A DNA stretch of 64,000 nt, from the NCBI RefSeq assembly GCF_037975245.1, contig NC_092583.1:9137764-9201763 (forward strand). The letters are read 5' to 3'. Shown one piece after another: positions 6,336 to 46,439 of the stretch. Below the pieces are notes generated by a model. The model was not told the DNA's origin. It saw only the letters and a list, made by a program, of their open reading frames with translations, and searched no databases. Position 1 is the stretch's first letter, and each line of letters starts with the position of its first letter. The stretch comes from Apostichopus japonicus. Taxonomy: Eukaryota > Echinodermata > Holothuroidea > Aspidochirotida > Stichopodidae. A program made the translations under genes and the position numbers.

Positions 6336-6410
6336 ATCAGGACTCCCTCTGTATAAATATTATTGTCGTAGAACTACTTGACCAGATATCAAAATGGCCA
6401 GCGCAAAACC
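6336..6410 (+). CDS. Propeller-DED-ZU5 gene: exon 2, start codon
   Basis: Exon between tttttatccgcag and gtaagt. The coding part is 6394-6410 (MASAKP, last codon split). An in-frame TGA at 6379 and the aaaATGg context support this start. Confidence 0.7.
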
Positions 6411-9400
6411 GTAAGTATTATTATTATTATTAACAAAAAATAACATATGATCGAGATGTGTTTATACTTGGCAATAATACATGGCAATATAAAAAAGTAT
6501 AAATTATGTGTTTACTTTACATTGTCCTTTATAGTGGCAATGTTGTATACTGAAAATAAACCGGGCTTCTAACTTCTGAAATGCGGGAAAAGGTTTAGTG
6601 TTGAAGGGTAGCAGGACATCAAGGTGTCGTTACATTGAGGCGGTAAAGCACAAAGCCAACTCAAATCGCTGATAAAATGGATCCTCTCTGCATTTTGTAC
6701 CACAACAATTATTTTAATACGACAACGATAGAGCACATTCCGATTGATTACTGTAATTTATCAGCAAAATGGCACCTCCTGTTTTCACTTTTCCTAAATG
6801 TGTCAATAAAATGACTCTTTTTAAATACCACAATATGAAAAAGTACGGTACTTGTTCAAAATGAGTACATCTAATCTATCAAACGGAGCATTTCTTAATG
6901 TCTTTGTTACAAAAGAGGAGGAACGTTGCCCATCGGATCCCCCCGCATCGTGTCAATCGCCCCTGGATTAAACACAAATGTTTAATGTCAAAGCTTAGTC
7001 TGGTAGACATAGAGGATGACTTTACTTTAGGTGCATAATTAAAGTCGATATGTTGTAGACCTTTAAACACATATGTTATCAGCCCATGTTGGATGTCCCT
7101 TTATATAAATGAGGTTAATCCCTTTGAAAGTACTGGACCGTATTTAGTCTAATACAAAGACCATTACGTTAGTTTCTCATTTATAACACAAAACTCACCG
7201 TAAAGACGTTTATGGCCTCAAATGCCAAATTAAGATTCATTGCAAATTTTTTGATGTCATCCAATGGAGCTTTGTTGCTTTTATGGAGATTAAGTACATG
7301 TTGTGGTGGATTTGATAGAATTTTAAACAATGGATTACCAATGAATTTAGGATTGCACTGAGGCGCTCACGTCATCGATCTCAGGACCCTTAAGTGATCA
7401 TTCCAAAGTTTTAACATATTTTGAAGGTAAATATTTTGGAAACCTGTGTAGCTATAGAAACATATCTACTAGAAGTGTGACTTGTCCTTTGTTTTTTGTT
7501 GGACTATAATACGTCAAAAACTCAAGACTAAAATTCTATTTGAAGCTCCCCTCCCCCACCCGGGAAAAATTTAGACCAAGTTGACTCTCTTTAATAGCGC
7601 CACCAATCATCATTAGCGGAGCCTTTTGACAGTTAGCTTTTTGAAATAGCGCCATCATTTACAACTTGTGACCGTGTGTCTCTTTCTCTTAGTTGTTGGC
7701 GCTCAATGCGAATGAATTAGAATGTACTGCATGCATGTGGTCAACACACAGGAAAAGTTGAATCAGAACGTTACATCAGTACATGCGTATGATAACGATG
7801 AATATTGAAGATAAATAAGTCGTGTTCAAGCAAACAAAATATAGCCAATGCAATTTCTTCAATTTTACTGAAAATTCCTATTAACAAGGCTTAGTCGGTG
7901 TTGCTATATGTGAGAGAAATTTTGTTTCATAAACACACAGTAATTAATGTCAAATGTTTTGCTAGTAATAAGATACTTTAATAGGAAAGTATTTTATTCG
8001 GTCGATTTTCCAATTTCTAGCACTTTTAACTCCGCTCTCCATATATACATTAATGCGGAAATGCAATTTCTTCACGTTTTATGTAGGAAAGGGTTCTTAA
8101 TTAATGGGAAAACCCTATTATTGCTGGAAGTTTTCGACAAGTATTTTCCTGCAGGTTTTTACTCTCCAAATTGTTCTCAGATATTTTTAAAGAACACACA
8201 AGATGACTGAATGTCCAAGTGAGGAAAATTTCTTCGAAGGTTGTAATAAAATCAGTTTAAGAATTTTGACCAAAGGTGACCATATTTGAGTATCTAGCAT
8301 ATTCGGGGCCAATACAGCATAACTTTAAGTCATGGATCTACAGTTAGGCCAGTATCCTAATTATTAGGCCTTGAACGTCTCATTTCTTATATCTTCGAGA
8401 TTACCATGTCGAATAGTTTGCTCTGGACATTTAGTGCTATTGTGGGTAACGACTTTGTAGTAGGACCTAAGCTGTATAGCTACTTCGCAGGCTGAGAGCT
8501 GTTCATCAACATTTCCTTCGATCTAAAAATCAACTCTAAATTCTAAGTTACCATGGATACAACCTTCCAACCCTGACCTAACTTTTCACTTTTTGCTTTC
8601 CACACACACACAGAGTGCATACAACGATACCACGATTCACTGTACAAGATGGTTACATTGTGTCGGCAATGGACGTGCTAGATACAGGCCGTCTGGCTGT
8701 CGCTGGATATTGTAACAAGACAACATGCAGCTTTATTGATCTGTTTATGTTACAATTAGATCCTGATTCTAAAATAACCCCGTTATTATTGACTTCAGAG
8801 CCGTTTTATTATCAGGAATTTACCGAGTTTGGTTCAGAATGGCGGGTTGTTTGTTTACTGGATGATCGTCTGTTTTTAACGTGTTGTAAGAATACGATAG
8901 CTTTGTACGACAGTAGTAATGGCGGTCTGGTCAATCAAGGGAAGTTTAACGGTGAAGCCTCGTGTATGACAACCAGAGATGGGTTAGTCTATGTCGGTTT
9001 AGTAATGTCCAACGAGGTAATTGTCTTAGATTCGAGAAAATTGAGAAAAACGAGGACAATCACCTTAACAGGAATAAGAGAAGACTGGCCCTGGGATATA
9101 ACAGTTAGTAATAATAAACTGTTTATCTGTACAGCCTATGGGATAGCTTTAATGTGTAATAGTGAGGGAGAAATAGAACAGGAATATACACACACACAGT
9201 ACAGACGTGCAGATAGTATAACAGTCAGTGAAGAGAAAGGATTAATATTCATATTATGGGAGGGTGGTGAGGATAGACGAGTTGTTGTTTACTCTCTATC
9301 TGGGGGTCATTCTTCAATCTCTGGGGGTCATTCTTCCATCTCTAGGGGTCATTCTTCTATCTCTGAGGGTCATATCTTGGCTTCTTTTAATGTTCCTACT

Positions 9401-12400
9401 GATTCATGGAGAATCAGGATCAATAATAACATAAACAGATTGTTTGTGGTTACCTGGGATACTGGAGAAGTATATGAATATCACACAGTAAGTACTAATA
9501 CAGGATATATAGGCCTATTGTAAAAAATAGGGCTATTTGACACTTTTATTAAAGCAATCCATTGATTGAAGCTCAACAAATTGGGTATCATTCTATGGGA
9601 ACAAGTGAGGAGACGACACTCTTACATGTATGTTTTGAGATCTGCTTTAAAAAAAATTAAAGAAAAATAAGGAAATTTTTTTCTTGGGCTTTGCTGATTC
9701 TGGTAAGGTTTTCATGAAGGTTTGTCGTACTGTCAATGTAAAAGTGAAATTGGTTTTCCTTATTTTCTCAGTCTTCATTACTTCAAATATAGACAAAATT
9801 GTTATAGATGAATGCGGAATTTTATTAAGAACACAAATATTTCTTGTTTGTTAAGAGGGAGATCAGAATGGTGGAAAAGTGAGTGCAAAATTTTATTAAA
9901 AATTTAGGCCATTGGATTCTTGTTGCACTTTGCAAGATTAGAGCAACACACAAAATTTTGGAAATAGTTTTTCTTATTTTCTGAGCTTACAAGCTCCTAA
10001 TTTTTACAAGTTTGGTATTAGTGAATGCGGAATTTTATTTAGAACACAACTATTACTTGTTTGGTGAGAGGGAGATCACAATGCTGGAAAAGTGAGTGCT
10101 AAATTATTTAAAGAAATTTAGGCCATTGGATGCTTGTTGCCCTTTGCAATAATTGAGCAACACACAAAATTTGGCAACTGTTTGTTCTTAGTTTCTGAAC
10201 TTACAAGCTGCTAACATTTACAAATATGGCATTAGTGAATGCGAAATTTTATTAAGAACACAACTATTACTGGTTTGTTAAGAGGGAGATCAAAATGATG
10301 GAAAAGTGAGTGCAATTTTTTTTTTAAAATTTAGGCCATTGGATGCTTATTGCACTTTGCAATACTAGAGTAACCCACAAAATTTGGCAAATATATTTTC
10401 TTATTTTCTGAGCTTAACAAGCTGCTAACTTTTACAAATTTGGTATTTAAGTGAATGCTAAATTTGAATAAAAACACAACTATTACTTGCTTATTAAAAG
10501 AGAGATCAAAATGGTGAAAAGTGAGTGCAAATTGTTTTTAAAACTTCAGGCCATTGGATGCTTATTGCACTTTGCAATAATAGACAACACCCACAATTTG
10601 GCAAATAATTTTTCTTATTTTCTGAGCTTTACAAGCTGCTTACTTTTACAAATTTGGTATTAGTGAATGCGGAATTTCTCTTTAGAACACAACTATTACT
10701 TGTTTGTTCAGAGAGAGATCAAAATGGTGGAAAAGTAAATGCAAACTTGTTTTCAAAAATTCAGGCCATTGGATGCTTGTTGCACTTTGCAATATTGGAG
10801 CAACACCCAAAATTTGGAAAGGATTTTTCTTATTTTCTGAGCTTACAAGCTGTCAAAATTAGGTATTAGTGAATGCAAAATAGTCTCAATAGTGCAATAA
10901 GTGCATTTTGTTTGGCAATAATGTCTATATAATGAAAATCTAGGCCAACAATTCCATGAAAAGTGATGCGAGATGAATGTTGCATGGCATACAGCTCAGA
11001 CAAAAGATGTGTTTGTTCCTTTATCAATAATTTTGGCTGTCAAATATACAAATGTGACATAAATCAATGTAAAATATTGTTAAGAACACATGAGGTGCAA
11101 ATTCCCATGAAATGAGGTAAATTTCAAGAAAAAGTAAGGACAACATTTTTATCTTAATTTAAGCTATGGTGATTAGTTTGACACTAATGCACATGTATAG
11201 CAAATACTGCACAGTGATGATACCTTGATTTGATGACAGTATTAAGCAGGAAAAAGGAGTGAAAACAATAACTGTTTTGAAAAATATGTCGATTTCTACT
11301 TTAAAAAAAGTATATGAAAGTAACGTGTTACTGCGCAGTGTATAGACAGTTATAAATAGATATTTTATTCAGCCACTGATCAAGAATACAATGTAAATTG
11401 GGTAAAAACAAGAGCTCAAAAATCAAAACGAGTACAAAACTAAAAACAGATTCAAAATAAAAATGGATACCAGGATGAAAATGTTGCTAAGACATTAAAC
11501 ACACAGTGTTAAAATGTCTTAGCAACTTTATTCCTGTCAGTTTTGTGACAGTAAAGATTATAGATATCACTTTGTGTAAGTATTGATACACAATATCCTG
11601 CTCAATCGTCTAAATATGCAGTACATTAATTAACTACATAGTGAAGACCGCCATTTCACTAAGCCCACAATATAATGTATGCAATTGCTATGCACATGGA
11701 TTAAACATAATCATCGCTACCCATTGCATGAGAAAGCATTTATACCACATGTCAACCAGTGTAAGAACAATGGTCTGCCTGTTAAAGGCCTTTTTGGTTT
11801 TGATGATAATCTTAACCTTTGAATTTATGATGGCGTATGAGTGTATGCGTGTGTGTGCGTTTGTTTTTCTATCTGACCGAGGACTTGAACAAAAGAATTC
11901 CAGGTCTTCGGTTGTGATTTCTAAAGAATCACCACGTCCTCGGAAGAATTTCTATTGTATGGGGTATTGTTAAGGTTAGGGTACGTGGATTTGAACAATG
12001 GAAAATACAATGGGGTCCTCGGTTGGAATGTAAAACCAACATGTGTGTGTGTGTGTGACTGAGTGCGTTTGTGACGCCCAGCTTGTAAACATGATATCTC
12101 AAAAAGGGAAGATCAGACCAATTTCATACTTAATGTGTAGATGTACCACATTGAGTACAATGAGCCTATTGTGGGGAATCATGGGGAGACCTCATATTTG
12201 GTGTGTAGGAGTATATACTGTACCACATTTAGTACAAGAAGCCTATTGTTCCTTGTCGAATTGAAAGGTCATTTGGAGTCACCGGGGTCAAATTGTGAAA
12301 ACCTTGTAAACACGATACCTCAAAATGGGAAGCATGGGCAGACTTCATATTTAGTGTGTAGGAGTACCTCAGACTGTAAAAGAAGCCTATTTTCGGTGGA

Positions 12401-15400
12401 GGGCAAAGGTCTTTTGGGGTCACCAGGTCTCAAATTGTGAAAACATTGTAATCATAATATCTCAATACTGGAAGCTTGGGCCGGTCTCTTATTTAGTCGG
12501 TAGAAATAACACATTGAGTTAAAGAAGCCTATTGTTTTTGGTTGGAGTCAAAGGTCATTTGGGGTCACCAGTGGTCAAATTGTAAAAGATTGTAATCTCG
12601 ATATCTTAAGAAGGAAAGCTTGGGAGGACCTCATACTTAGTTTGTAGAAATACTACATTGAGTTAAAAAAGGCTCTTTTTTTGGTGGAGGTCAAAGGTCT
12701 TTTTGGGTCACCAGGGGTAACTTGTGAATACCTTGTAAACAGGATATCTCAAGAAGGTAATCATGGGGAGACCTCATATTTAGTATGTAGGAGTACCACA
12801 AACTGTAAAAGAAGCCTACTTTTGGTGGAGGGCAAAGGTCATTTTGGGTCACCAAGGGTCATATTGTGAAACCATTGTAAACACGATATCCCAATACTGG
12901 AAGCTTGGGCCGACCTCTAATTTAGTGTGTAGAAATACCACATTGAGTTAAAGAAGCCTTTTGCTTTTGGTGGAGGTCAAAGGTCATTTGGGGTCACCAG
13001 GGGTAAATTGTGAAAACCTTGTAAACACGATATCTCAAGAAGGGAATCATGGGGAGACCTCATATTTGGTGTGTAGGAGTACCACATACTGTAAAAGAAG
13101 GTATTTTGGATGTCCAGAAGGCAAAGGTCATTTGGGTCATCAGAGTTTGAAACGTGAAACCCTTGCAAACATTTACACCATAACTATACATTACGTCACA
13201 TTCACAAAGAAAACTGCTCATGATACATCATCGAAACCACAAAGAATTTTTGCATTTTGGTTAAACATGTCATCAGGCCACACCATGTATTAGTCAATTA
13301 CAGTATGTCTAACAGGATTTATAAACCCAGGAAACTTAGTTTAGAGTTATAGTTGATAAGTTCCCATAGTTTTCGATAATTAAATGTTTCACATGCATTC
13401 CTTTTCATGAAGCTATGTAAAGCTCATAGTGCAGTAGCTGCACATAAAATTTAGTATATACACCAATCTTAAAAGAAGTCTTGACAGTGCACATGGACTC
13501 TGATTATTTAAGCATTTGAGCTGCAGCACATGTGGTTTACTGTAGCTGTGCAACTTACAAGCATTAACCAAACTTTCCAGCCTATAGTGCTTCTAAGTTA
13601 GTTGTGTACTGATTCAGTCAATATCTATTACAAGATTGTAGGATTAAATAAATGAATCTGTAAGTAAAAACCTGTGTAAAATACAACACTGCGTCAATAG
13701 TTGACATAGTAATTAATATGTTAACTCATGTAAAACAACACTTCTAACAACTGAAAAATGCAAGATGTAAGAAGGGGGTAGGAAGAGTGTGATTTGTGTG
13801 TGTTTTAATGTTACTGACCACCTACATTGCCCAGAGTTGAAGACACTTTAAGTAGTTTACGTCCATGATCACATTCCCACACAATCATGGGTAATAATGT
13901 AGTGTTTACTGGTTAAGTTGGAGAATGATGTTTAGCTCAATAAACTATCATTTTAAGTTGGTTGCGCCATGAATAAATCTACTACAATCTGACTGATACA
14001 ATTTCATGTATTGAATGTACAGTATTGATGTTCCTGTACAGCTTAAATATCAATCCATCCCAATTGTCAGCTTTTAATACTTTTAATTTATTCTGAAATA
14101 AATATATTCCATTGTAGTTGAAGGAACTCAGATAAACCACAGTCACATAATCAACACCTTCATCATAGGTCATAAAATAAATCCCTTCTATGAATATATG
14201 TTGCTGTCTCAATGCCTCAAATTTCTACTTCTATTTTGTTTTATGGTCTGCTACCACCAATATATTTATTTGATTTAATATTTTGTTTTCCTTTTTGTTA
14301 TAGAGTGAGATCATAACTTTTCAGAACCTCCTGATGTGCTCAGAGTCATTGATTGAGAAAAATGACTGTAAGAAGCTACTTGACTACTTTGAAGTTCCAG
14401 CTAAGAAATCAAAGGGCTTTATAAAGAGTGATACACCCTTTTCATCTCTTGGCCACTATCTCAAAGAGGCAGGAAAGGTTTCTGTTGATGACATCAACTA
14501 TTTAATGACAGCATGCTCTGACAAAGGACTGAGTAAATTGATGGTAGTTTTGACCCTCTACCAACAAGCTCAAGGTATGTTTACATCAGAGAGCTTAACA
14601 GTTAAATATGCTATGAATTAAAAAACATTCAAATGCATCGCCAACACATAGAATAGATGCAATTTTAGGTAATATATCATTGTATTAACTTATCTTTATT
14701 AACCCATTGTTGATAAGAGAGAGACCCTCCATCAACACCATTTGATACAAAAAATGTGGTAAATAAGTTGGAGAAAAATCTAATAACAGCAATGGCCTGT
14801 AAAATACTTTAAACCCAGAAAGAGAAACCAATGTAGATGTCAAGGTATTACATTACAGTCAAATCTTTGGATAGGTCTGTAACTTATAATGGGATATACT
14901 CAAAAGTTTATGTTCAGACAAGATTGGTAAAATTTGGGAATTTCCTTTCCTTTTGAAATTGATAACTCAATATCTTTGATAGATTGGAGGTTCATTGAAG
15001 GGGCTTAACTTTGGTAAATTGCTCAGAAGAAGGGCCAAAATAAAAACCAAGTCAATGGTATCAATTTGCAGTGTCATCTCTAATAACATGCTAAAGTTGG
15101 ACACAAATTTGAGCTCACTAAATTTGGTGCAAGTTTGTCACAATATTTTCCGGAAAGGTTGTACAGCATAAATAATTAACATACATTGAACTGTGTATAT
15201 TAACATAACCAAATCTCTTGGGTTGAAGAAAATCTTTAACCATGTTTGTATCTTATATGTTTGTTTCAGATTCAAAGTTTACCAAAACAGTACTAAAAGA
15301 TCAACTAAAGGCATTAGAAGACAAAAGGCAGGAACTCTCTCACAAACTCACTGAATCAGAAAAACATCAGCTCACTGGAAGACTAAAGACAACAGAGGAG

Positions 15401-20367: not shown

Positions 20368-20424
<57 letters not shown>

Positions 20425-35400: not shown

Positions 35401-38400
35401 ACCAATGTTATCATATCTGTTGACCCGCTTGTAGGTGACTTTATTCTTACATTTTCGACGCCATATTTAGATCTCAAAAGTGCCTTTTGATCAAAAATCC
35501 GATCACCTTTTGTGATCACAAAAGCGTTGGCTATAGTGTTGGTTACTTTATGGGTACATGTAGGACCACAATTATTTGGACTATTTGAGCCCAACCTTGC
35601 TTGATAATATTATGTGTATTGTCATATACCCCAAGCAAGGAACCACAGTGCCCTTGGGCTCTTGTTCCATAATTCTTTTACATGTATTTTGCATTGTTTC
35701 TTTGAGTATATATCAAGCATTCTCATCGTTAGTATAATTGATTTTCAATATCCTTTATCCATTAGCATGTCGACATTGATCACCTCTGTGCTGCCAGTAG
35801 AGTCTCGCATCAGTTCAGACTTAAAAGAAACGACGATGGACATACTGTTATGGTTGATGTGAACTTAAAAGTATCACAACATGAAAAAAACCAGACAGCC
35901 CTTATCCTCCAATCAAAGGTGAGTTATATTTGCTGATTGTCTTCCAGCTGTTTTGGTTCTCATATGTTTCTTCATTATGCAATATTAAGTGGCATCTTCT
36001 CTCTTCTGATCATTTCTTTGCTTAGTAATGTTCTGTCTGTTGGAAGTCTTGCAAGTCTTTTCAGGCTAACTGAATAATGTTAGTGCTGTGACTGAATTCT
36101 AGTTATTTGTTAGCATGTTCTCTCATGAATCATTTTCTTTGTAAACTTGATGGTGGATGACAATTGAATTTAATTGAATTATAATAGTCTGTTATTCAAG
36201 TACTATCTTTTTTTTTCATTCGCTCACTGGTGTACCTAAGTTTCTTATTTTGATACCGTTTTCGGAGTCTTTGGTGTTTTGTTAAGAATATTTAACTCAA
36301 AATGCAGTGAAATGCTGGACACAATGTACATATCACAAGTGTTTTATGCTATGCACTGGCCAACAGTTTCTGGAAACTTTGTTCGTGGGTATCTTAGGTG
36401 CCAATTAAATACTCCATAAGTGATAGGTATATGTTGTCATAAACATAATCCGTTTCCTTGGGATTTCACACATTTTGATTGATTATGTGTTGTTCAATGT
36501 CTGTTTCATCCCTATTTTTCTACATTACGTTTCTACTTTAAACCGTATCATCCACAGGGGTGTGATAGATAGTCTGCAATATTGTATGTTAAACATTCAT
36601 TCATTTAACGTTTTTATCGGTCATATATATTGTGTTTTTCTTCAGGTGAAAAACATTCTCTTATCTCCAGAAAGTCAGAAAATTCTTTTCAGAGAACTAC
36701 ATCTAGGTAAGTTTTAAGTGGAATTTTAACGAATGGTTGGATTTAGGTAGTTTTAAAAGTCCTCCCTGACCTGCATCTAAAGTGAAGTTGGCACAAAAAC
36801 TAAACTGAATGCTCATTATCCTAGACATGCACCAGGTAAGCGTGTGTTAGTGGAGATTAAAAAGTAAGCAAACATACAGAACATGGACCAAGGTGAGTGT
36901 CTAACTAGACGTGAAAATGTAATAGCATTTGGTTTTACAAGTAGACACACCTGAGTGTCACTTATAACAACTAAGGTTATTGGGAAACATTTAATCAGAA
37001 ACTACTTTGTAGCTCAAAGCTACTTTTGAAAGTGAAACTGTAAACAAGACTAAAATTTATGCACAAGACGAGGGGTAAAAGTTGAAAAGTTGCAGGAAAG
37101 GTTTGGATAGTATAATTTACCAATTTATTGTGTGCACGCACCAACGTTCTCCATGCAGGTTGCATGCTTCTTGTGGGCCAGTTGTGTACTTACTTGTTTA
37201 TGTTAGTTGTGAACATTGCTCATTGTTCAAACCTGGCACACAAGTAGCCTGTGATTCATGCCCTTTTAGTTATACATGTGAATCTAGTCTTTTCGCTCAT
37301 TTGAATGTAATGTGAATGTTGTTGTTCTCACTTCAGACTTAGACAGATATGAAGAGTTGAGAAGAGAGATTGCAAAGCTTCTGGATAAACAACATTGTGA
37401 ACAGCTAGGCATGTTCTTTGGGCTCACCCCAGCAGAAAAAGAAAAAATTCAGGAAGCAGCAGAATCTGGAGAGATACTGATGAAAATATTGGATGAAAGA
37501 GAGCTTATCATGCCAAATAGAATGATTCGACTGTATGAAGGATTGAAAGCTATTCACTTTAATAAGCTGGCAACACAGGTGCTGAAGTACATTGATACGT
37601 CACAGAAGAAGAATGGAAAGGAAAAGGAAGGAGCGAAAGATGATAAGAAAATAGTATGCGCTTAGTAAAAACTTGTTAAGACATAATACAGCGTGAAAGC
37701 AAAACAAAAGTCACTTTGTATAAAATCAAGATCGTAGAAGGTTAGAAGGCCTAGTACAGACTGTACTTTCTGATATGTAAAGTATCTTTTTTTTCTCTCA
37801 TGTCTGTCTGAAATGTTTCCTTTCACTAATTGTAACAGTTTCTGCTCACCTGAAGTTACATATGTAGAGATCAAATGTACAGGAAATCTGTGTAGAAATT
37901 TACTAAGCCAAATCAAATACAGTAATTAGTTTTCTATCTTCATGACATAATGATAAAATGTGAATTTCATAAACAATTTTTAATATTTCAACATTATTCC
38001 TTCAGGTAAAAGTTCCAGAGAAACAGTTAGTCATGTCAAAAAGGGAACCACAATTGTCAGTAAATTTCAAAATTTTGATAGAAGAGGGATACAAGAGACT
38101 GGATGTCCAAGGAGCCTTGAAATTGTCTCATGGAAAACTGGACTTGGGAAGACGACTGTTGCTGCTTGCTAAGGAAGAGCATGGTAAAGTACCCATATAG
38201 TCAGCTACATGGGTATTCTTATTTATGTCTTCCTGATTCAATTAACCTAAATCTTATATGACAATCTAGAACCCCATTTCATTGCCTTGGCTGCTTCAGT
38301 GTTCATAGAAGAAAAATAATTTTGTTATTTATTTTTGTAGGAATATTACGCACAAAATAGCTGAAAAATATAATATCATCCAGATGCGGTAAATAAACCT

Positions 38401-41400
38401 AATTCTTGTTACCGTTAATGAAAAATCTATTTCCATTCATCACATCAAACATGTCTAATATTTACTGTTCCATATATGTTGATTCTTCATTATTGTATAT
38501 CTGCAAATAGACAATGGAAACAGTTTTGTGTTGAAGAGCCTATTTTCATAGAGTGAACTGAAACAGTATATGCAATTATTTAATGTTTAATGAAAGTGGC
38601 AAAATCCTTTCCTTTCACATGAAATATAATACTTTTCTCCTCCAGAGAGACTACCTTTGTTCCCTGGGTCAAATCTTTATAAAGAACAATACTTTGATCA
38701 GCATGGAGGAGAGGTGGTTATCGCAGGTGTCATTCTGAGTGTATCAGCTGGGGCGCTACACACTGGAAGGATTGTTAGTCTTTGGGTTTCTACTGAACCT
38801 GCCATTAAAGGACCTTTCTCAAACAAGAGTCTAAGGTTGACCCCCTTTGTGAAATTTGGTCCACAAAGCCTTACTTTACACAAGCCTGTCACATTGATTA
38901 TTCCACACTGTGCTCTAACTACAACTAACCAGATGGGTATTGATGTGTACTCTGGCATATTACAAACAGGTATGTGTTTTCTTCTTTTACCGTGTGTTTT
39001 TCTACTCCAGTGAACGTATATATATTGTCACTAAAATTTGGTTTTTCAACAGAAGTATGTATATGAGCTTGTGTGTACCACCTGTTGACTTGTAAACATG
39101 ATATGCCAAAAGTGCATAATGGTGTTATTTGACACTGTGTGTGTGGTTCCATATTAAATGAATACAAATACCCGGCTTTTCTGTAGAGGTCAAAGTCTGA
39201 AACATTTGTGAGCACAATGATTCAAAAAAGGTTGTGTGAACTTCGTTTGTGCTGTTTAGATTCGCTGGGGTATGTAAAACAAATTTAAAATGTGTTGTGC
39301 TGGTCAAATGGTCATTTGTAGTAAATATGTGTCAAAGCCATAAAACCTTCCAAACCTTCATAACTGCTAAAGTAAAGCTGGAATGAAAGTCACACTTGCA
39401 ATGTGAAACCACCTAAGTACACAAACACAATATTGAGAAGAATATTCCAAACTTTTTGGTTCTGTGTAATGTAGAAATCAATATCTCAAAATAGGTGGTT
39501 ATGTCCAAACAAATCATATACATTTCAAAAGAACCCTTTTCGTATTAGTTGTACCTTCTGAAATGTTGCAAATTTGAGGGAGAGATAAACAACATTACTA
39601 AAGAGAAATAGTACCCTTCGAGCTGTTTTAAACTTTAGGGTTTTATCTAGTGACCTTGCATCCAAACATAGCGTTAGAAACATGATATTTTTCTATTTTG
39701 ATGTTCTATATAAGCAGTTCTGCATTTTCTAACCACCAGAACTGCTCCTTTAAAGTCATCTATTGTATAGTTTAGGATCGGTGATCTACCTTTCACCATG
39801 TTATTAAACTTACTAGCAAAATGTTTTTAAAATTTACTTCAGATAAATCTGTCAAATGGAGCTTAGAAAGGAAACACCTCATCTGCTCTATGAATAGCCA
39901 GCACCTTGCAGTTGAAGCTCATAATCCCTGTCTCATTGGTCTTCATGTCCCTTTCATACCCAAGATGAGGAAGCGTGTTTGTATTTTACCGATTGTAAAC
40001 AGAGTTTCTGATTCGGGGGATCAATTGACAATCCATCTTTGGTTTCATAATGATGACACACTGGAACATAAAGTAAGTAGCAGATTTTGTCATCTCAAGT
40101 GGTGTTGCTAAATATCTCATAGATTCCAGTTATCTGCCTTTCTGAATGACACATGGTTCATACACAGATTTATACAGGTTGATTTATTGTTAACCATATT
40201 AGCGATGGAAATGAAATAGTTCTAGATTGATGCACCCTGCAGGCTCAAACCTCTCTGACAGTCAACTTGTGAAGATATAGTTAAGGTAAGGGTCAAGTGA
40301 GATAAGCTGGTAAAGGCAGTCTGTGGTCATTAAGAGTTGAAAATTATAACTACAATTGAATCTTCACTAATTTATTGTTGTAGAACATTTGACACCTGGC
40401 AACAAGTTTTGTAATTACAGACACATTTATAAAACATACCTTGACCAGGTGTCAAAGACTAGACAGCAATGATTTATATTTCAGAACAAAGGCTGTCAGA
40501 CTATTAATGGTCTTTGACAATGCATCATACTAGACACTCCATTATATTATATATTAATAACATCTCCCTTTTTTATCAAACAATGGCAACCCCAAATAGG
40601 GCCATACTGGGGAGCTGGTTTGCTTCCTGGACAACTAAGCAGTGTGTGCATGGATATTAATGTTAATATTTATATAAATAAGAATATAATCTGCAATTGT
40701 TTTATTTTTATATTAATAGAGTCTTATCCATGAAGAAATCTACCAGCAAAAGGGAACCACAATTCATGATCCTGTGTGTGTTGTACTCAAATCTATGACT
40801 TCAACTTTACATGTTAGCACTAACTCCAGCACACCACATTGTAACCCACATCCTAGAAAAGTGGTTAGTTATATTTGTTAAATATACTTATTTATTTGTT
40901 GGCAACATGTAGAGAAAGCAGCTACTTCCTGTTCCACAGGTAATAATTTGCATTTGTTGGAAGAATAGTTATATGTTATGTTGCGTGGTACATATATGGT
41001 GTTAGCATATGTTTGTATACAAATAAACATATTATTTTAAACTTGTCTTCTGTCATTCAAATGATATTCAATAAATGAAAAGGGGTGAGATGGTCCCAAC
41101 TGCAGCTGTCTATTCAGTTGATTTCACTCTGGACTAGTCCTTCATTCCATCTTCATTGAATGTCCATGTATTGGTTTTATAAGTACTTTGTAATGTGTGT
41201 AACTGTTATGGTCTCTTTTTATGATTATATTTTGCTTATATGACTAATCATTATGTTCAAGCTTATAAGAGCTGATTGGAATATGAAGTTAATAGTCTAT
41301 AGTCTTGCCTGAATACTGAAGCCTTGTCAAATTACTTTACAATGCCCATATATTTAAATATGCATAATTTCATTAGTTTACAATGTATTTTTCCACTGGG

Positions 41401-42784
41401 GGACATGAGTACAGTCAAAGTCAAGGACACAGCTATATTTACAAATTACCTTGCATTTTCCAATGTTTACACCGGGATGAAGACAGGCAATTGAAGTTAT
41501 TTCCCTTGCCTAAGGCCATATGGTAACACGCCAGTCGACCAGTACTGGGACCTGCATTCTTTAAATTGCAAGCCTGGTGCCCTAACAACTTGACCAACAT
41601 GTTAAATGCTCTCAAAAGTTTTATAAATGAATAACCATCAGTTGATTTTCTCTCTTAAAGGATGTTGCTATGGAAACCCTATGGTTAAAAAATAGACACA
41701 TGTTAGAATTCCATCTTCAGAATAAAGGGATCAAAGATACTGTCAATCTGGAAATAGAAGCAAGATATGAAATGTCCGAGAAGATTCTTTTCCAGCTTAA
41801 TATTCAGTTGCAGGTAACTTAATATTTGGATTAAATGAACACATAGAAGCAACTGATTACAAGGAACTTAACGTTTTACTTTGGATTTATCTTAACTACT
41901 GAGAGTCCTTTTATATTTACCTTTTATTTATATGTTTTTTTTTTAATTCTCTTGTGTAGTCGTGTTTCTATTTCTATTGAAAACTCTACTTTGTCTGCCT
42001 AAGTTAATGAGCGAAAGAATTTCCATTATGCAGGTTTGAAATAAAATGTTACAATTTTACACAAAAAAAAAACCTTATGACAATCTCTCTTCATATTACA
42101 AATGTAATACATATAAAATATCCTAAACAGTTACTACTAATTAGCATATCTAAACATCATCACTTAAACCACGTTTTGATACACACTGTCAAATGATAGA
42201 GGTGAGATAGTCACAAACTAATTTTCTAGCAGAATCATCAAGCTTTCCTCTTCATTTTGTCTTCACAGATTGACAAATTACTACATATTGACCAAATCAC
42301 CTCTCCATTCCAGCTCGCCCTACCTGAATGTGAGTAATGAATAACGTTATTAACATTTAAAGGCATGTTAATTAATCGAAGACCAGTGTTGATGTTAGCT
42401 TTACAATCATTACACATGAAATGTGTTCACCTAATCCTACTTTGTTGCTATGTCAACTGGTGGACCAATTGTCAGCTATTTGCAATATTTGATGTTAATG
42501 AAAATCAGTTTTTACACCAAAGCAACACACTTAAAGACTGGGTATGTACACTGTATTGAAGTATCACTGCAGTGAAAAATAAAAATTAATGAAATACAAC
42601 CACGTCTTTCAAAAAAAAATAAAAAAATCTGGAGATAAATCATATTTTATATTTAGTATTATTAAAAACTCTGAGCTTTTAAGGTTTATTTTGCCCGTGT
42701 GTGTAAGAAACACATCACTGTTGTCCAACAATTCTGAATATTGTTTGCATGAAAAAGGTTCTGCTGGATTTATTGTATGTAGAG

Positions 42785-42839
<55 letters not shown>

Positions 42840-42844
42840 TATAT

Positions 42845-42942
<98 letters not shown>

Positions 42943-43275
42943 TTAACAATTTCCTTTTCTTTAAACCTCACAGCCATCATCAAATCTTTTGATCAGCTAA
43001 AGCAGAACTTATCAGAAAATCTTGATGTAGACCATTCTACCCTGCTGGCAACTATTTTCCATATTCCCGAGGAAGGAATCTCTGATATCAAGAAGCACAA
43101 CAAACCAGGAACTATTTTGTTAGAGAAGCTGACCCAAAAATCATTGATATCTCCCACAAACATCACAACATTGGAAAATGCCCTAACAGAACAAGGAAAT
43201 GAAAAATGTGCGAAACTTGTCAGAGAATTCAGAAGTAAAAATCCTGTAGTTCAATCAACAATGTGCCCAGAATAA
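6394..43275 (+). CDS. Multidomain protein: beta-propeller, four DED-like domains, coiled coil, two ZU5-UPA modules
   Basis: Hand-built model of 20 coding exons: 6394-6410, 8614-9487, 14304-14574, 15270-15760, 16850-16987, 18695-18779, 23024-23347, 23907-24389, 24567-24793, 25239-25400, 35766-35918, 36646-36706, 37337-37653, 38006-38183, 38646-38969, 39843-40072, 40720-40860, 41661-41813, 42269-42329, 42974-43275. Every junction has GT/AG and matching phase, giving 1663 residues. Domains: propeller 7-297, DED-like about 300-387, coiled coil 390-597, DED-like about 626-715, ZU5 about 795-885, UPA 895-1075, DED-like 1096-1180, ZU5 about 1270-1360, UPA 1369-1543, DED-like 1564-1650. ZU5-UPA-death-fold order is known from UNC5, UNC5CL and PIDD; two such modules plus a propeller match none of these. 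Role inferred: cytosolic death-fold signalling scaffold. No signal peptide or membrane segment. Exact splice edges could shift by a few bases. Confidence 0.8.
6411..8613. other. Intron 2 of the propeller-DED-ZU5 gene
   Basis: AT-rich; apart from short aat runs I see no repeat or gene. A (CA)n tract forms the acceptor. Confidence 0.6.
8614..9487 (+). CDS. Exon 3: beta-propeller-like domain
   Basis: A single 874-nt exon encodes the whole N-terminal domain (residues 6-297). It shows recurrent beta-rich blades with hydrophobic strands such as [33 protein letters not shown] and [13 protein letters not shown], typical of NHL or WD-like propellers; I cannot tell which family. It ends with EYHT at a gtaagt donor in phase 0. 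A short SGGHSSI repeat is inserted near residues 235-262. As the first domain it probably recognises a partner or ligand. Confidence 0.75.
9298..9375 (+). repeat. 21-nt coding repeat (SGGHSSI x 3-4)
   Basis: Three near-identical copies of tctgggggtcattcttcaa-like 21-mers plus a fourth degenerate copy, in frame, giving [28 protein letters not shown]. Probably a flexible loop between two blades. Confidence 0.85.
9810..10880. repeat. About 212-bp tandem satellite, five copies
   Basis: The unit start gaatgcggaattt recurs at about 9810, 10023, 10237, 10453, 10664 and 10871 (spacing 207-216). Each unit holds ctattacttgtttgtt, gagggagatca, aggccattggatgct and ttttcttattttctgagctt. Lies in intron 3. 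No coding signal. Confidence 0.9.
10881..12030. other. Intron 3, middle part
   Basis: AT-rich; related decayed satellite words up to about 11150, then nothing I recognise. Confidence 0.5.
12035..13190. repeat. Dispersed ggtcaaaggtcatttggggtcacc repeat, tandem block
   Basis: Starts with a (GT)n tract and gtgacgcccagcttgtaaac, then repeats a unit of about 150 bp: gatatctcaagaaggg, gacctcatatttagtgtgtag, agtaccacattgagta, agaagcctattg, tttggtggaggtcaaaggtc, atttggggtcaccagg. Six to seven decayed units. The same family occurs at about 18030-18640, 22020-22700 and in related form at 26420-28300 and 35030-35480. Not a CRISPR array: units are long, decayed and spacer-free. Confidence 0.85.
13191..14303. 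other. Intron 3, 3' part
   Basis: No repeat or gene seen; ends with the acceptor ttttgttatag at 14303. Confidence 0.5.
14304..14574 (+). CDS. Exon 4: first DED-like domain
   Basis: 271 nt, phase 0 in, phase 1 out. Pattern: [17 protein letters not shown] (helix 1-2), [12 protein letters not shown], then [20 protein letters not shown] and [13 protein letters not shown]. The xLxxFLKExGxIsxxNixxL block is typical of death effector domains. Subfamily is uncertain; CARD or death domain cannot be excluded without a profile search. Confidence 0.65.
15270..15760 (+). CDS. Exon 5: coiled coil of 14-residue repeats
   Basis: 491 nt, phase 1 in, phase 0 out. After [18 protein letters not shown] it encodes about nine tandem 14-residue units of the form (G/D)-(R/T/A)-L-K-x-T-E-E-E-R-Q-(Q/H)-(L/F)-(T/K), two heptads each. 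Strongly charged; expected to form a long helix that oligomerises. Confidence 0.85.
15368..15750 (+). repeat. 42-nt coding minisatellite
   Basis: About nine copies of a 42-nt unit containing acagaggaggaaagacaaca, the DNA basis of the coiled-coil repeats. High similarity between units points to recent expansion or homogenisation. Confidence 0.9.
15761..16849. other. Intron 5
   Basis: AT-rich. Holds one perfect agaggtcaaaggtca motif at 16064-16077 inside a decayed piece of the ggtca repeat family. Confidence 0.6.
16850..16987 (+). CDS. Exon 6: coiled-coil continuation
   Basis: 138 nt, phase 0/0. Encodes [20 protein letters not shown] and then a Glu/Gln-rich helix ending QQEL, extending the coiled coil. 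Acceptor acattacag, donor gtaatg. Confidence 0.7.
17030..17630. repeat. Unidentified sequence rich in ctacgggt/gttacag words
   Basis: Higher GC than its surroundings, with many copies of tacggg, ctacgggt, gttacag, ctacat and cgtag in loose order. No unit length is clear and no open frame convinces. Could be a decayed minisatellite or the body of an unknown element. Lies in intron 6. Confidence 0.4.
18030..18640. repeat. ggtca-family dispersed repeat block
   Basis: Begins after a gtgtgtgtggg tract; contains gtgacgtcctagcaattgtaaac, ttatctcaagat, gtggacgtcaaaggtcattt and ggggtcatcaaaggtcat. Decayed copy of the 12035 block. Confidence 0.75.
18695..18779 (+). CDS. Exon 7: acidic linker
   Basis: 85 nt, phase 0 in, phase 1 out. 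Encodes [20 protein letters not shown] then ISQKSSLA. No domain. Supported by phase match, tttgcag acceptor and gtaaga donor. Confidence 0.6.
18914..18921. repeat. Left 8-bp target-site duplication of hAT element
   Basis: aggaagag, identical to 19981-19988 on the other side of the element. Confidence 0.85.
18922..19980 (-). mobile_element. Internally deleted hAT DNA transposon, 1059 bp
   Basis: Ends are inverted: left cagtggggggagc, right (minus strand) cagtggcggagcg, a typical hAT CAGTGG terminus. The flanking 8-bp direct repeat aggaagag is perfect, as hAT insertion makes. The interior holds only the last part of a transposase on the minus strand. The copy is non-autonomous. It lies in intron 7, 142 bp after exon 7. 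Confidence 0.88.
19437..19600 (-). pseudogene. hAT transposase C-terminal fragment
   Basis: Minus-strand frame of 54 codons plus TAA encodes [20 protein letters not shown] then [20 protein letters not shown], the hAT dimerisation-region end as in ZMYM1-like or TTF-type zinc-finger hAT proteins. Everything upstream (catalytic core) is missing. Confidence 0.8.
19981..19988. repeat. Right 8-bp target-site duplication of hAT element
   Basis: aggaagag directly after the terminal ccgccactg. Confidence 0.85.
20363..20573. repeat. (TA)n with embedded palindromes
   Basis: TA repeat interrupted by acagtatatctttatattgc at 20421, its reverse complement at 20457-20478, and the first word again at 20516-20537. 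The 22-bp arms 20421-20442 and 20457-20478 are perfect inverted copies. Confidence 0.9.
20591..21540 (-). mobile_element. Probable solo LTR
   Basis: Read on the minus strand it starts tgttataatacacg and ends cccaacgtaaca (TG...CA). A good core promoter gtataaaagcccgcc lies at complement 21318-21332, with an attaaa-like signal about 630 bp later. Higher GC and no open frame. No second copy, primer site or target duplication was seen, so the class (likely Ty3 or BEL) is open. Confidence 0.5.
22020..22705. repeat. ggtca-family dispersed repeat block
   Basis: (GT)n start, gtgatgcctagcttgttaac, then several units with tttggtggaggtc and aaaggtcatttggagtca. Same family as 12035-13190. Confidence 0.8.
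23024..23347 (+). CDS. Exon 8: second DED-like domain
   Basis: 324 nt, phase 1/1. Encodes [20 protein letters not shown], then [20 protein letters not shown] and a final helix. The same [11 protein letters not shown]...LMKxLxERxIIxxxNxxxL pattern returns in exons 14 and 21. Confidence 0.7.
23907..24389 (+). CDS. Exon 9: acidic linker and first ZU5 domain
   Basis: 483 nt, phase 1/1. An acidic, charged linker of about 65 residues, then ZU5 signature pieces [38 protein letters not shown] and LTIPHSA. These match the ZU5 pattern GGxLxxxGVxLxIPxGAL ... PxVxLxPxGxxFxKPVxLxIPHxA. Confidence 0.85.
24567..24793 (+). CDS. Exon 10: UPA region, part 1
   Basis: 227 nt, phase 1/0. Encodes [29 protein letters not shown] and [20 protein letters not shown] ending KDSDEDYK. 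Paralogous to exon 17 (230 nt). Confidence 0.75.
25239..25400 (+). CDS. Exon 11: UPA region, part 2
   Basis: 162 nt, phase 0/0, [20 protein letters not shown] to KEESTK. Counterpart of exon 18. The downstream intron is 10.4 kb and holds the DIRS element. Confidence 0.7.
26087..26384. mobile_element. MITE-like element with gcgtagcca inverted ends
   Basis: Left edge caggtgcgtagccaagga followed by a G-rich stretch; right edge ctcccttggcaaattactggctacgcatg. tgcgtagcca and tggctacgca are inverted. The style is of hAT-related MITEs; a clean target duplication is obscured by G runs. Confidence 0.5.
26420..27710. repeat. ggtca-family repeat, variant with gacctcaatttgacctctggtgacc
   Basis: Starts with (GT)n and tgtacacgatatctc. 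Two long units of about 640 bp: tcccagt...ggtgtgacacggttgatat recurs near 26620 and 27290, and acccgcatctgggtgaccctt at 26825 and 27480. Dense in aaggtca and complement. Confidence 0.8.
27711..28324. repeat. Interspersed repeat with atgaaacttgg motif
   Basis: Begins ctcataccagcatgctggtgtgaga; carries atttcatgaaacttggacacaagg at 27821 and ataatgaaacttggtcacaacg at 28119, suggesting two related subunits. The DIRS element is inserted in its 3' part. Confidence 0.6.
28325..28437 (+). repeat. DIRS left inverted terminal repeat
   Basis: From aattcacagcgcgtac to ccttccgtaatt. The inner part from tcacctcatataac onward is inverted in 34321-34412; the outer 20 nt are unique to this end. Confidence 0.9.
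28688..28945 (+). repeat. DIRS leader repeats with cgtac...gtacg hairpins
   Basis: Three copies of ttcacgtacagcagtcgtgtacg (28691, 28762, 28855), each followed by ttaca/tttgcagt-aagtaactgc; two also carry ttcgtactggtctagatacg. Each can form a short hairpin. Untranslated leader of the element. Confidence 0.8.
29057..29698 (+). pseudogene. DIRS gag-like ORF, interrupted
   Basis: Starts with ATG at 29057. The N-terminus (residues 4-37) holds four Cys pairs (CRSC, CPKC, CGSKQTC, CSIC), a zinc-binding pattern; the tail is Ser/Arg-rich like an RS domain. A TGA at 29696 ends the frame, yet HRAKKRKRR follows in the same frame and coding-like sequence resumes in other frames up to 29775, so this end is probably degraded. 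Gag would package the element RNA. Confidence 0.7.
29775..31543 (+). pseudogene. DIRS ORF: gag remainder and reverse transcriptase N-half
   Basis: Open from a TAA near 29772 to 31543, with no ATG near the start. The first 300 codons are a gag or linker region; RT begins near 31100. RT pieces: [20 protein letters not shown], motif [14 protein letters not shown], motif [14 protein letters not shown]. The frame is lost at about 31530 through one missing T in a short T run; the RT continues in another frame. Confidence 0.85.
31525..32585 (+). pseudogene. DIRS reverse transcriptase C-half and RNase H
   Basis: Continues the [14 protein letters not shown] is the YxDD catalytic box. RNase H follows with [13 protein letters not shown], the glutamate in [24 protein letters not shown] and ILADALSRG, keeping the D-E-D-D set. 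The frame shifts again near 32550, and the conserved tail ([18 protein letters not shown] onward) is in another frame to 33007. Confidence 0.88.
32449..33876 (+). CDS. DIRS tyrosine recombinase
   Basis: Open frame of 475 codons; the true protein probably begins within it, as the first 130 codons overlap the RT tail and look non-coding. SAM-like core-binding part with [15 protein letters not shown] and [17 protein letters not shown]. Catalytic domain with an arginine in [12 protein letters not shown]412-D-V-R415, W438 and the nucleophile tyrosine Y448 in FVACYL. This enzyme would integrate the circular DNA copy. All hallmark residues are intact and no stop interrupts the core. Confidence 0.88.
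   Translation: MGNGISPERGPTTYFTCSAGRPSTCLRRPRTLQIPRPTGLEDRRPSRLMGGPLHVRLSPTGITPQSSHDVSGRGSGHAFDRTLLAQSSMVPTHHRDAGGPTIQIPAGRQAPLPTERPNNPPRHHEPPSSCVETLRLSLQTAGFPPEVADIAVDARRQSTIKTYDSRLHRYYVWAGDNAVDPVEASVDQVAAFLLELFREGKQISTIRNYRSAIAAVHSGFSDGSSVGTNPVLRQVLMGMFHRRPSRRRLAPSWALHEVPTTLAGSPYEPLHNAPLDKLTHKTLFLIAAASARRRSCLHALTLQRGFKRFEPGGVRLIPDPHFLPKNQSVTFTPNEIFLPSLSQASSIAEDKRWCPVRALKWYIERTKQLRTSDRLFILPRSPYTPASKDTISRWMADLIRAHTQPGEPVRAHDVRGHATSRAWFRGVPLEDIMKAAAWKTPSSFVACYLTNTPATEGDFARAALGPPPARSSTHR
32550..33007 (+). pseudogene. DIRS RT/RH C-terminal tail, frame-shifted
   Basis: Encodes [20 protein letters not shown] and [16 protein letters not shown], typical of the region after RNase H in DIRS elements. 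Overlaps the recombinase frame, as is usual for the family. Confidence 0.75.
33892..33989 (+). repeat. DIRS internal complementary region
   Basis: 33892-33934 is the reverse complement of the left tip 28325-28367; 33935-33989 is the reverse complement of the right tip 34400-34454. The junction is gaatt/cccc. It follows the recombinase stop by 15 nt. Confidence 0.95.
34321..34454 (+). repeat. DIRS right inverted terminal repeat
   Basis: From aattacggaagggagatgg to ggttaaggtttgggg. The inner part mirrors the left terminus; the outer 40 nt are specific to this end. Confidence 0.9.
34455..35029. other. Intron 11, right of DIRS
   Basis: Mixed sequence. gtggtgtggccaggattctgc at 34863 resembles a hAT/MITE start but no matching right end was found. 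Poly-G at 34888. Confidence 0.4.
35030..35480. repeat. ggtca-family repeat, variant copy
   Basis: Shares ggtataggggaatattttcaaac, ggtcatgtgatccaaggtca and ccaaggtgtgacacggttgatat with 27290-27400. So the DIRS element separates stretches of one repeat type. Confidence 0.75.
35766..35918 (+). CDS. Exon 12: UPA region, part 3
   Basis: 153 nt, phase 0/0. Encodes [20 protein letters not shown] and [20 protein letters not shown]. Same length and phase as exon 19. Spliced to exon 11 across 10365 nt. Confidence 0.75.
36646..36706 (+). CDS. Exon 13: short linker
   Basis: 61 nt, phase 0/1, [20 protein letters not shown]. Same length and phase as exon 20. Acceptor tttttcttcag, donor gtaagt. Confidence 0.7.
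37337..37653 (+). CDS. Exon 14: third DED-like domain
   Basis: 317 nt, phase 1/0. Encodes [59 protein letters not shown], then a Lys-rich tail. Donor gtatgc is weak; an in-frame stop lies 9 nt into the intron, so a shorter product ending here is possible. Confidence 0.75.
38006..38183 (+). CDS. Exon 15: linker, no domain recognised
   Basis: 178 nt, phase 0/1. Encodes [20 protein letters not shown] and [20 protein letters not shown]. Acceptor ttccttcag, donor gtaaag. Has no counterpart in the first ZU5 block, where an acidic linker stands before ZU5. Confidence 0.65.
38646..38969 (+). CDS. Exon 16: second ZU5 domain
   Basis: 324 nt, phase 1/1. ZU5 pieces [38 protein letters not shown] and LIIPHCAL. 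Closer to the consensus at the IPHCA end than the first ZU5. Confidence 0.85.
39843..40072 (+). CDS. Exon 17: second UPA region, part 1
   Basis: 230 nt, phase 1/0. [20 protein letters not shown] then [20 protein letters not shown] and [13 protein letters not shown], aligning with exon 10. Confidence 0.75.
40720..40860 (+). CDS. Exon 18: second UPA region, part 2
   Basis: 141 nt, phase 0/0. [20 protein letters not shown] and a Ser/Thr-rich tail. The donor could instead be 3 nt later (gtg/gttagt), which keeps the frame. Confidence 0.65.
41460..41610 (-). mobile_element. Possible SINE in intron 18
   Basis: Minus strand reads ttggtcaagttgttagggcaccaggcttgcaattt, an A-box-like tRNA head, then ggtcccagtactgg where a B-box would stand. 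Structure is decayed; assignment is tentative. Confidence 0.4.
41661..41813 (+). CDS. Exon 19: second UPA region, part 3
   Basis: 153 nt, phase 0/0. [20 protein letters not shown] then [20 protein letters not shown]. Same length as exon 12. Confidence 0.75.
42269..42329 (+). CDS. Exon 20: short linker
   Basis: 61 nt, phase 0/1, [20 protein letters not shown]. Same length as exon 13. Confidence 0.7.
42787..42938. repeat. (TA)n microsatellite in intron 20
   Basis: About 150 bp of TA with two tac breaks. Its right edge is 35 nt from the exon 21 acceptor. Confidence 0.95.
42974..43275 (+). CDS. Exon 21: fourth DED-like domain and stop
   Basis: 302 nt, phase 1 in, TAA at 43273-43275. [59 protein letters not shown] and a last helix. 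Closest within the protein to exons 14 and 8. Confidence 0.78.
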
Positions 43276-46379: not shown

Positions 46380-46382
46380 ATA

Positions 46383-46385
46383 TGA

Positions 46386-46437
<52 letters not shown>
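46383..46437. repeat. (TA)n microsatellite
   Basis: Pure TA for about 55 nt abutting the LINE fragment's truncated 5' end. Confidence 0.9.
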
Positions 46438-46438
<1 letters not shown>

Positions 46439-46439
46439 A

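Follow-up and report, generated by a model that had tools for sequence, protein, structure and literature searches.

The gene on the forward strand of the window, the 64,000-nucleotide stretch of Apostichopus japonicus DNA analysed here, is on balance probably a member of a sea-cucumber family of large cytosolic recognition receptors with a death-fold output, as judged from its domains and its relatives. Its product carries, in order, a six-bladed NHL-like propeller, a DED-like domain (DED1), a coiled coil, a DED (DED2), a ZU5-UPA module (module A), a DED (DED3), a UBA-like domain, a second ZU5-UPA module (module B) and a last DED (DED4). Differences among the paralogues are concentrated on one face of the propeller, both in A. 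japonicus and, separately, in Holothuria leucospilota.

The gene consists of 20 coding exons (6394..43275, +), and the reading phase was kept across 19 of the 19 junctions. Eighteen exons were located by eye and two (18695-18779 and 35766-35918) by a scan of splice-site scores. The rebuilt frame comprised 1664 codons and a TAA stop codon. A database protein, P0001 (A. japonicus 'uncharacterized protein isoform X2' in NCBI/UniRef, 1663 aa), showed 100% identity across the 1045 aa searched, and its full-length comparison with the rebuilt 1664-aa protein showed one Glu fewer, at the exon 4/5 junction. The 1663- and 1664-aa forms are explained by a CAG/GAG tandem acceptor of exon 5 at 16850/16853. 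P0001 is an independent gene model and therefore supports the single-gene reading; the exon phases and the shared domain order in H. leucospilota also favour one gene.

All exons lie on the forward strand. Exon 1 (6394..6410) contains the start codon, encodes MASAK(P), ends at a gtaagt donor and agrees with the N-terminus of P0001. The propeller (aa 6-297) is encoded by a single 874-bp exon, exon 2 (8614..9487). Exon 3 (14304..14574) encodes DED1, the weakest of the four death-fold-like domains, and exons 4 (15270..15760) and 5 (16850..16987) encode the coiled coil, which in exon 4 was assigned from its sequence pattern and from weak Pfam coiled-coil and SMC-type NCBIfam matches. The linker exon 6 (18695..18779) was one of two top-scoring scan candidates, the other starting at 18665, and agrees with P0001. 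DED2 is encoded by exon 7 (23024..23347), and a linker together with the module A ZU5 domain by exon 8 (23907..24389). Exon 9 (24567..24793), which has a Holothuria match, spans the end of this ZU5 domain and the start of the UPA domain. The UPA domain continues in exon 10 (25239..25400) and exon 11 (35766..35918), the latter the best-scoring scan candidate and in agreement with P0001, and ends in exon 12 (36646..36706). DED3 (exon 13, 37337..37653) and the UBA-like domain (exon 14, 38006..38183) follow. In module B, the ZU5 domain is encoded by exon 15 (38646..38969), its end and the UPA start by exon 16 (39843..40072), the UPA domain by exons 17 (40720..40863) and 18 (41661..41813) and the UPA end by exon 19 (42269..42329); exons 16-18 are covered by the alignment with UNC5B. 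Exon 20 (42974..43275) encodes DED4 and the stop codon.

The introns and flanks of the gene contain further elements. Intron 2 has long-period tandem repeats at 9793-10852 (about 214 bp) and 12221-13107 (about 144 bp). A DIRS-like retroelement lies in intron 10 (28325..34458, +), outside the protein; it has 99-nt inverted repeats (28344-28442/34316-34414) and two further inverted pairs, and its open frames gave RVT_1 and phage-integrase SAM-like matches over the cut-off. Reverse-transcriptase-like frames of other retroelements were found at 490-1077 (-), which matches RVT_1, and at 45543-46451 (-), which was judged by eye. Just upstream of the gene is a protein-kinase-like gene exon (3230-3460, +; Pfam E 0.0028, under the cut-off). 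Downstream, M14 carboxypeptidase-like open frames were found at 51491-58587 (+), where an activation-peptide match was obtained with a query whose first nine residues were incorrect.

Support for the individual domains was graded: the two ZU5 domains are firm, the UPA domains and DED2-4 are supported, and DED1 and the UBA-like domain are weaker. Both ZU5 domains exceeded the Pfam cut-off of 21 bits (module A, 31.3 bits; module B, 41.6 bits). UNC5B (3g5b; E 4.3e-11) headed the PDB matches obtained with the family profile, and its chain residues 13-288 corresponded to the ZU5 and UPA domains of module B. A PDB phmmer search with module A and DED3 gave no matches (0), and an alignment profile was needed for a match. 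Structure prediction of the C-terminal half (P0008 and 21 relatives) gave a mean pLDDT of 41 and a pTM of 0.24, DED4 alone being modelled with some confidence; this domain, which follows the ZU5-UPA of module B, was matched best by DED structures.

The DED-like domains are predicted to have a death fold, and their assignment to DEDs rather than to CARDs or death domains is tentative. In Pfam, DED3 (E 0.001, 19.7 bits) and DED4 (E 0.012) of the window protein and the Holothuria DED4 (E 0.0002) matched the DED family, all under its cut-off of 35.9 bits, and DED1 and DED2 of the window protein and DED1-3 of the Holothuria protein gave no Pfam DED match. The five best PDB matches of a pooled DED profile were the DEDs of c-FLIP (E 0.017-0.044); whether the putative DEDs are of the c-FLIP, the procaspase-8 or the FADD type is not distinguishable at such distance. 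With hhalign, DED2 matched DED3 (probability 90.8) and DED4 (probability 80.1). DED1 matched a profile of DED2-4 (probability 95.7, E 9e-9) and DED4 alone (probability 64, E 6e-5). Pfam and PDB profiles gave no confirmation of DED1, and its PDB search, in which the query alignment misplaces the last helices, found nothing related. The H. leucospilota comparison speaks against DED1, since its match to that species' own DED2 and DED4 gave probabilities of only 5.6 and 0.2. A CHMP7 winged helix was also considered for DED1: the DED1 segment of P0036 matched it in Pfam at E 0.0021, under the cut-off, and profile comparison favoured the other DEDs. A death fold is weakly favoured for DED1 over a winged helix.

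The exon 14 stretch of the family profile was matched by six CBL/CBL-B UBA sequences (E 0.007-0.09), and its Holothuria counterpart matched Pfam UBA at E 0.0064, under the cut-off; the window segment itself gave no Pfam match. The propeller was predicted with a pLDDT of 86.5 and a pTM of 0.87, and the eight best structural matches of this model (VIA-align) were all NHL propellers. The full protein showed no NHL sequence repeats in Pfam to E 1, and the likeness of the predicted propeller to NHL proteins is one of fold, a six-bladed NHL-type fold. NCBIfam gave SMC-type matches on the coiled coil and a weak beta-propeller repeat match (E 0.069). Two coding tandem repeats were present. A 21-bp repeat (7 aa, SGGHSSI-type; 9299..9378, +; TRF) encodes a disordered loop within blade 5, where model residues 231-248 had a pLDDT below 50. 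A 42-bp repeat (14 aa, two heptads; 9.2 copies; 15359..15743, +) lies in coiled-coil exon 4, and because of it the coiled-coil length can change in frame; the spacing between the DED1 and DED2 motifs was 129-629 aa among the 23 proteins in which both motifs were found.

Several domains of related systems were also looked for. A hydropathy scan revealed no convincing membrane span (the best 19-residue mean, 1.52, was inside the module B ZU5 domain). Scanned with Pfam to E 1, the full protein gave no Ig, thrombospondin, RING, B-box or TRADD-N match, and Pfam found no NACHT in the window protein. The triplets HFS, SFS and NFS occur nowhere in P0001, and the PIDD/FIIND-type autocleavage motif is thus absent. 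The hydropathy scan and the lack of detected extracellular domains suggest a cytosolic location.

These results bear on a sequence-only reading of the same DNA. It had described 20 phase-matched exons giving one 1663-residue frame; the rebuilt frame (1664 aa) and the 1663-aa P0001 agree with it. Of the domain order that it proposed, the propeller, the two ZU5-UPA modules, the DEDs and their union in one gene stood, the first DED proved weak and the UBA-like exon 14 had been missed. Profile searches and structure prediction, which it had suggested as a check, recovered the ZU5 domain twice over the Pfam cut-off, the UPA domain through 3g5b and the death fold through the DED4 model. Its author had known no named protein with this order, and a search of titles and abstract openings in open-access PubMed Central yielded no paper naming such an architecture.

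The gene is not a single case. A first protein search found 41 family proteins, some of them isoforms, all from A. japonicus. Thirty-six of the 41 were on four long contigs (11 on the 18.2-Mb, 18 on the 29.3-Mb, 4 on the 46.0-Mb and 3 on the 32.4-Mb contig), and 5 were on shorter contigs. Relatives from H. leucospilota and additional fragments from A. japonicus came in with a second search (67 proteins in total), and a third, with a profile from both species, found 61 proteins, again from A. japonicus and H. leucospilota only; the second and third searches scored the approximately 8000 candidates sharing most words, so that absence from other echinoderms is not implied. The H. leucospilota relatives showed 34-39% identity to P0008, and one of them, P0053 (1996 aa, about 35% identity), carried the whole order from propeller to DED4, the UBA-like domain included. 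The earlier suggestion to look for the same order in other echinoderms was thus borne out, and its framing as a single gene gave way to one member of an expanded family in two sea cucumbers.

Not all family members have the complete order. H. leucospilota P0062, P0064 and P0065 stop after one module, and A. japonicus P0037-P0039 stop soon past exon 14. In P0035 and P0036 (29.3-Mb contig) the last unit is swapped for a different ZU5-UPA and a RIPK1/TNFR1-like death domain; P0036 matched Pfam Death with 40.4 bits against a cut-off of 22.6, and the P0035 cassette was matched in the PDB. Near the end of their ZU5 domains are KLKHFSWEKF (P0035, with HFS) and KLNNFSWEKF (P0036, with NFS), which by our own reading of the sequences, rather than by a computed alignment, would occupy the place of HF/S in PIDD and SF/S in CARD8; HFS, SFS or NFS occurs somewhere in 12 of 68 family proteins, and the motif by itself proves nothing. 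Two relatives contain NACHT: A. japonicus P0040 extends into such a domain, and the order in H. leucospilota P0067 is DED-like domain, NACHT, coiled coil, DED, ZU5-UPA and DED. In both, the NACHT domain may come from a neighbouring gene fused in prediction. In the P0031 model, domains of transposon type are joined to the family protein.

The two modules are related by an internal duplication. Each of exons 9-13 has a counterpart of the same phase and similar length among exons 16-20 (227/230, 162/144, 153/153, 61/61 and 317/302 bp), which argues that the duplication is not a chance resemblance. The module A ZU5 of Holothuria P0053 was 51% identical to module A of the window and 29% to module B, and its module B ZU5 was 42% identical to module B of the window and 31% to module A. 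In a tree of 20 ZU5-UPA units from 14 proteins, the units formed an A clade (support 92/96) and a B clade (89/86), each containing both species. The automatic cutting of units had passed over every unit in P0022 and P0027 and part of those in P0024 and P0060. Long branches were flagged by the tool, and the support of both clades, short of the tool's star, is moderate. Because the A and B clades each hold both species, the duplication probably predates the split between Stichopodidae and Holothuriidae. Within each clade the copies of one species grouped together, for which separate expansions or within-species homogenisation would be alternative explanations.

Variability of the propeller was then expressed as site entropy among 29 A. 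japonicus proteins, that is, the 31 (of 41) in the alignment less the isoforms P0018 and P0025. Of the 291 propeller letters, P0012 had 2, and so practically no propeller, while P0002 had 163 and P0005 had 105; each site had at most 28 letters, typically 27. Mean entropy was 1.75 bits in the BC loops, 0.91 in the DA loops and 0.72 in strand A, and lower elsewhere (AB loops 0.37, CD loops 0.53, strands B 0.42, C 0.44 and D 0.60 bits). Sites above 2 bits accounted for 8% of positions in the propeller and for 0-1% in ten other scored stretches, the coiled coil and two linkers having been left out of the scoring. Residues 229-250, which form the tandem-repeat loop, were excluded from the face tests and kept for the mean entropies and the 8% count.

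Twenty-four propeller codons between 8657 and 9460 (+) exceeded 2 bits, and 21 of these 24 (269 sites scored) were on the BC/DA or top face, the loops being assigned to top or bottom from the predicted propeller model. Their first bases are 8657, 8663, 8666, 8714, 8717, 8723, 8954, 8960, 9002, 9005, 9011, 9077, 9080, 9092, 9134, 9137, 9140, 9206, 9212, 9260, 9401, 9407, 9455 and 9458. Five of the six blades have such sites and blade 2 has none. In a circular-shift test, which corrects for neighbouring sites only, 2 of 290 shifts reached the observed value in A. japonicus (3, 7, 1 and 3 of 290 at four margin settings), and 2 of 290 did so in H. leucospilota (0, 3, 2 and 0 of 290), for which the face tests used 4 full and 2 partial propellers. 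Among the 4 full H. leucospilota propellers, sites with at least 3 residues numbered 17 on the top face and 3 elsewhere, and site entropies correlated between the two species (Spearman 0.29, 256 sites).

The 27 most variable sites were rich in W (5.6% vs 1.0%), K, E, R, D, Y and N and poor in I, L, V, F and T. Among the 26 proteins with enough letters at these sites there were 25 different combinations, with a mean pairwise difference of 0.79 over 27 sites that had been picked for variability. Sites 15/17, 114/116, 158/160, 198/200 and 263/265 flank the residues V16, A115, P159, A199 and S264, whose entropy was 0-0.5.

We compared the faces within and between the species. In the 72 A. japonicus pairs with 14-20% overall difference, 0.300 of top sites and 0.104 of bottom sites differed, and the 6 H. 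leucospilota pairs gave 0.256 and 0.098. However, between the window propeller and four H. leucospilota propellers the values were 0.617 (top), 0.727 (bottom) and 0.652 (other), and at 60-73% such values are near saturation and could hide a top-face excess. A freely drifting face would be expected to be the most divergent between species too, and the lower value of the top than of the bottom face there points away from relaxed constraint. In a McDonald-Kreitman-like table of sites diversified in A. japonicus against sites fixed between species, the top face gave 36:15 and the rest 13:54 (Fisher P = 2e-8, a value that treats linked sites and related paralogues as independent and comes from paralogues rather than sampled alleles). 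The closest A. japonicus pair, P0027/P0030, showed no top-face excess (4/105 vs 3/97), and in the most distant A. japonicus bin the contrast narrowed to 0.400 vs 0.245 (99 pairs). The contrast between top and bottom could also be widened by gene conversion that homogenises positions other than the variable ones. The concentration of paralogue differences on one face is a strong pointer, short of a formal test of selection, to diversified recognition rather than relaxed constraint; the excess is found in both species separately and is absent between them. That the propeller senses a ligand, as the sequence-only reading had proposed, gains indirect support from the hypervariable face.

The sensor diversification rests on this evidence, and the steps downstream of it are drawn from the named domain families. 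In the mechanism that we propose, the propeller would bind a ligand through the BC loops and strand-A starts of its top face, and top faces differing between copies would bind different ligands, such as a pathogen molecule, altered self or an allogeneic cue. Clustering of the protein would follow from ligand binding together with the coiled coil, whose length varies and which contains the 14-residue repeat; the earlier reading had likewise proposed a coiled coil that oligomerises and four death folds that recruit effectors. The DEDs and the two DED-ZU5-UPA units would open from a closed state and nucleate an assembly of the DED type, in which caspase or FADD-like proteins would be the partners and cell death or inflammation the output. 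The UBA-like domain may add a ubiquitin contact. Ligand binding, clustering, the switch, the DED partners and the role in immunity or allorecognition are all put forward in this conditional sense.

Other explanations were weighed against this receptor. Under neutral birth-and-death expansion, the copies would be redundant scaffolds whose top-face loops vary as structurally free. Loops in general tolerate change, the copies cluster on few contigs with P0031 fused to transposon-type domains, the pair P0027/P0030 lacks the excess and the between-species values are near saturation. We nevertheless consider it unlikely, since AB (0.37 bits) and CD (0.53 bits) loops are conserved in comparison with BC loops (1.75 bits), between species the top face does not exceed the bottom in divergence, and the excess is found in both species separately with variable residues rich in W, Y, R, K, D, E and N. 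Somewhat less likely again is a propeller that binds RNA or a self protein like that of TRIM-NHL proteins, the paralogues being regulators with diversified targets: near-saturated differences (0.79 over 27 sites) and species-wise expansion would be unusual for conserved regulators, and the Pfam scan to E 1 showed neither RING nor B-box. The proteins might also be c-FLIP-like or decoy regulators whose DEDs cap or tune, whose ZU5-UPA locks and which mainly inhibit death signalling. The best matches of the pooled DEDs to c-FLIP and the lack of HFS, SFS and NFS in the window protein suit this idea; it is nonetheless improbable, because c-FLIP DEDs cannot be told from those of procaspase-8 or FADD at this distance and several DEDs with a coiled coil suit assembly.

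Database names suggest a netrin receptor. UniRef gives the name 'Netrin receptor UNC5' to seven of 17 BSL78-named relatives that the second protein search found in A. japonicus, and the 2017 A. japonicus genome paper counted 234 netrin-receptor genes, among its most expanded families, and read the expansion as compensation for a missing central nervous system (PMC5638244). A UNC5 identity of the family is highly improbable: the window protein has no convincing membrane span and no Ig or thrombospondin match to E 1, and DED-like folds replace the UNC5 death domain. A netrin role was rejected for the same want of a membrane anchor and extracellular domains. The nervous-system reading is probably wrong for this family, to which the 234 genes may largely belong. 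Least likely of all is a locus made of two or more genes joined by prediction, for which the long introns, one with the DIRS-like element, and the NACHT relatives P0040 and P0067, which could be joined neighbours, might be cited; P0001 is the same protein, H. leucospilota has the same order and the exon phases match.

Having weighed these, we favour the recognition receptor, and more tentatively, as a view a little short of probable, a wider picture of the family: a germline-diversified cytosolic repertoire of tens of genes, with an NHL-type propeller as the variable part and DED-ZU5-UPA arrays as the signalling part. The repertoire would perhaps include many of the 234 'netrin receptors'. It would be an animal counterpart of the fungal HNWD allorecognition or immune receptors, independently diversified in two sea-cucumber families from one ancestral design, with some copies carrying a potentially autocleavable ZU5-UPA-Death cassette. 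If true, this would give invertebrates a new class of immune or allorecognition receptor, one whose variable face can be tested and whose death-fold output is built in, and a convergent animal parallel to fungal propeller receptors; the published 'netrin receptor' expansion in a farmed species would have been read in the wrong biology. The family would also offer a natural example of DED and ZU5-UPA units undergoing duplication, exchange and perhaps a gain of cleavability. The main text of the H. glaberrima genome paper has no mention of ZU5, UNC5, NACHT or netrin (PMC13228809).

Among proteins with ZU5-UPA followed by a death fold, PIDD1 and the FIIND proteins NLRP1/CARD8 share this order with the window protein. 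PIDD and CARD8 are described as cleaved at HF/S and SF/S at the ZU5 end, PIDD also having LRRs (PMC3210808). In contrast to PIDD1, with its LRRs and cleavable HF/S, the window protein has no HFS, SFS or NFS; it also differs from P0035 and P0036, whose ZU5-UPA-Death cassette carries HFS or NFS at what we read as the PIDD place. UNC5 and UNC5CL have the same ZU5-UPA-death fold order, and 3g5b was the best PDB match, but the window protein has two modules, DED-like domains in place of a death domain and no extracellular repeats or membrane span that could be found. TRIM proteins carry a coiled coil, as does the window protein, and the TRIM-NHL proteins Brat, TRIM2 and TRIM71 share the six-bladed NHL-type propeller; the window protein differs in having no detected RING or B-box and in its N-terminal propeller followed by death folds.

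In the variable part there is a close parallel with HNWD proteins, which carry NACHT, a domain absent from the window gene. Like the sea-cucumber family, those of Podospora anserina form a gene family with a propeller whose variable top d-a and b-c sites are paired around a conserved residue (21/24 sites on the top face here). In HET-E, the WD40 codons under positive selection belong to the top platform, where those of the d-a loop and of the b-c turn form pairs that each bracket a conserved residue (PMC1805685), and the output of HET-D/HET-E is cell death (PMC2873952). HNWD propellers differ in their seven or eight near-identical WD40 repeats, whereas the window gene has six divergent NHL-like blades together with DEDs and ZU5-UPA, and codon-level positive selection was measured there, protein variability here. 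Expanded DED-TRADD-N proteins with WD40 propellers, highly variable in amphioxus, are described from amphioxus and oyster, with mention of UPA-Zu5 fusions (PMC8195603). They resemble the present family in a lineage-specific expansion in marine invertebrates and in the joining of DEDs to propellers; the window gene differs in having no TRADD-N (Pfam to E 1), an N-terminal and NHL-like propeller, and paired ZU5-UPA modules with a UBA-like domain, which the passages on these proteins in PMC8195603 do not describe. Diversified propellers joined to death-fold domains are thus already known, and the sea-cucumber family is a newly and differently built variant of them.
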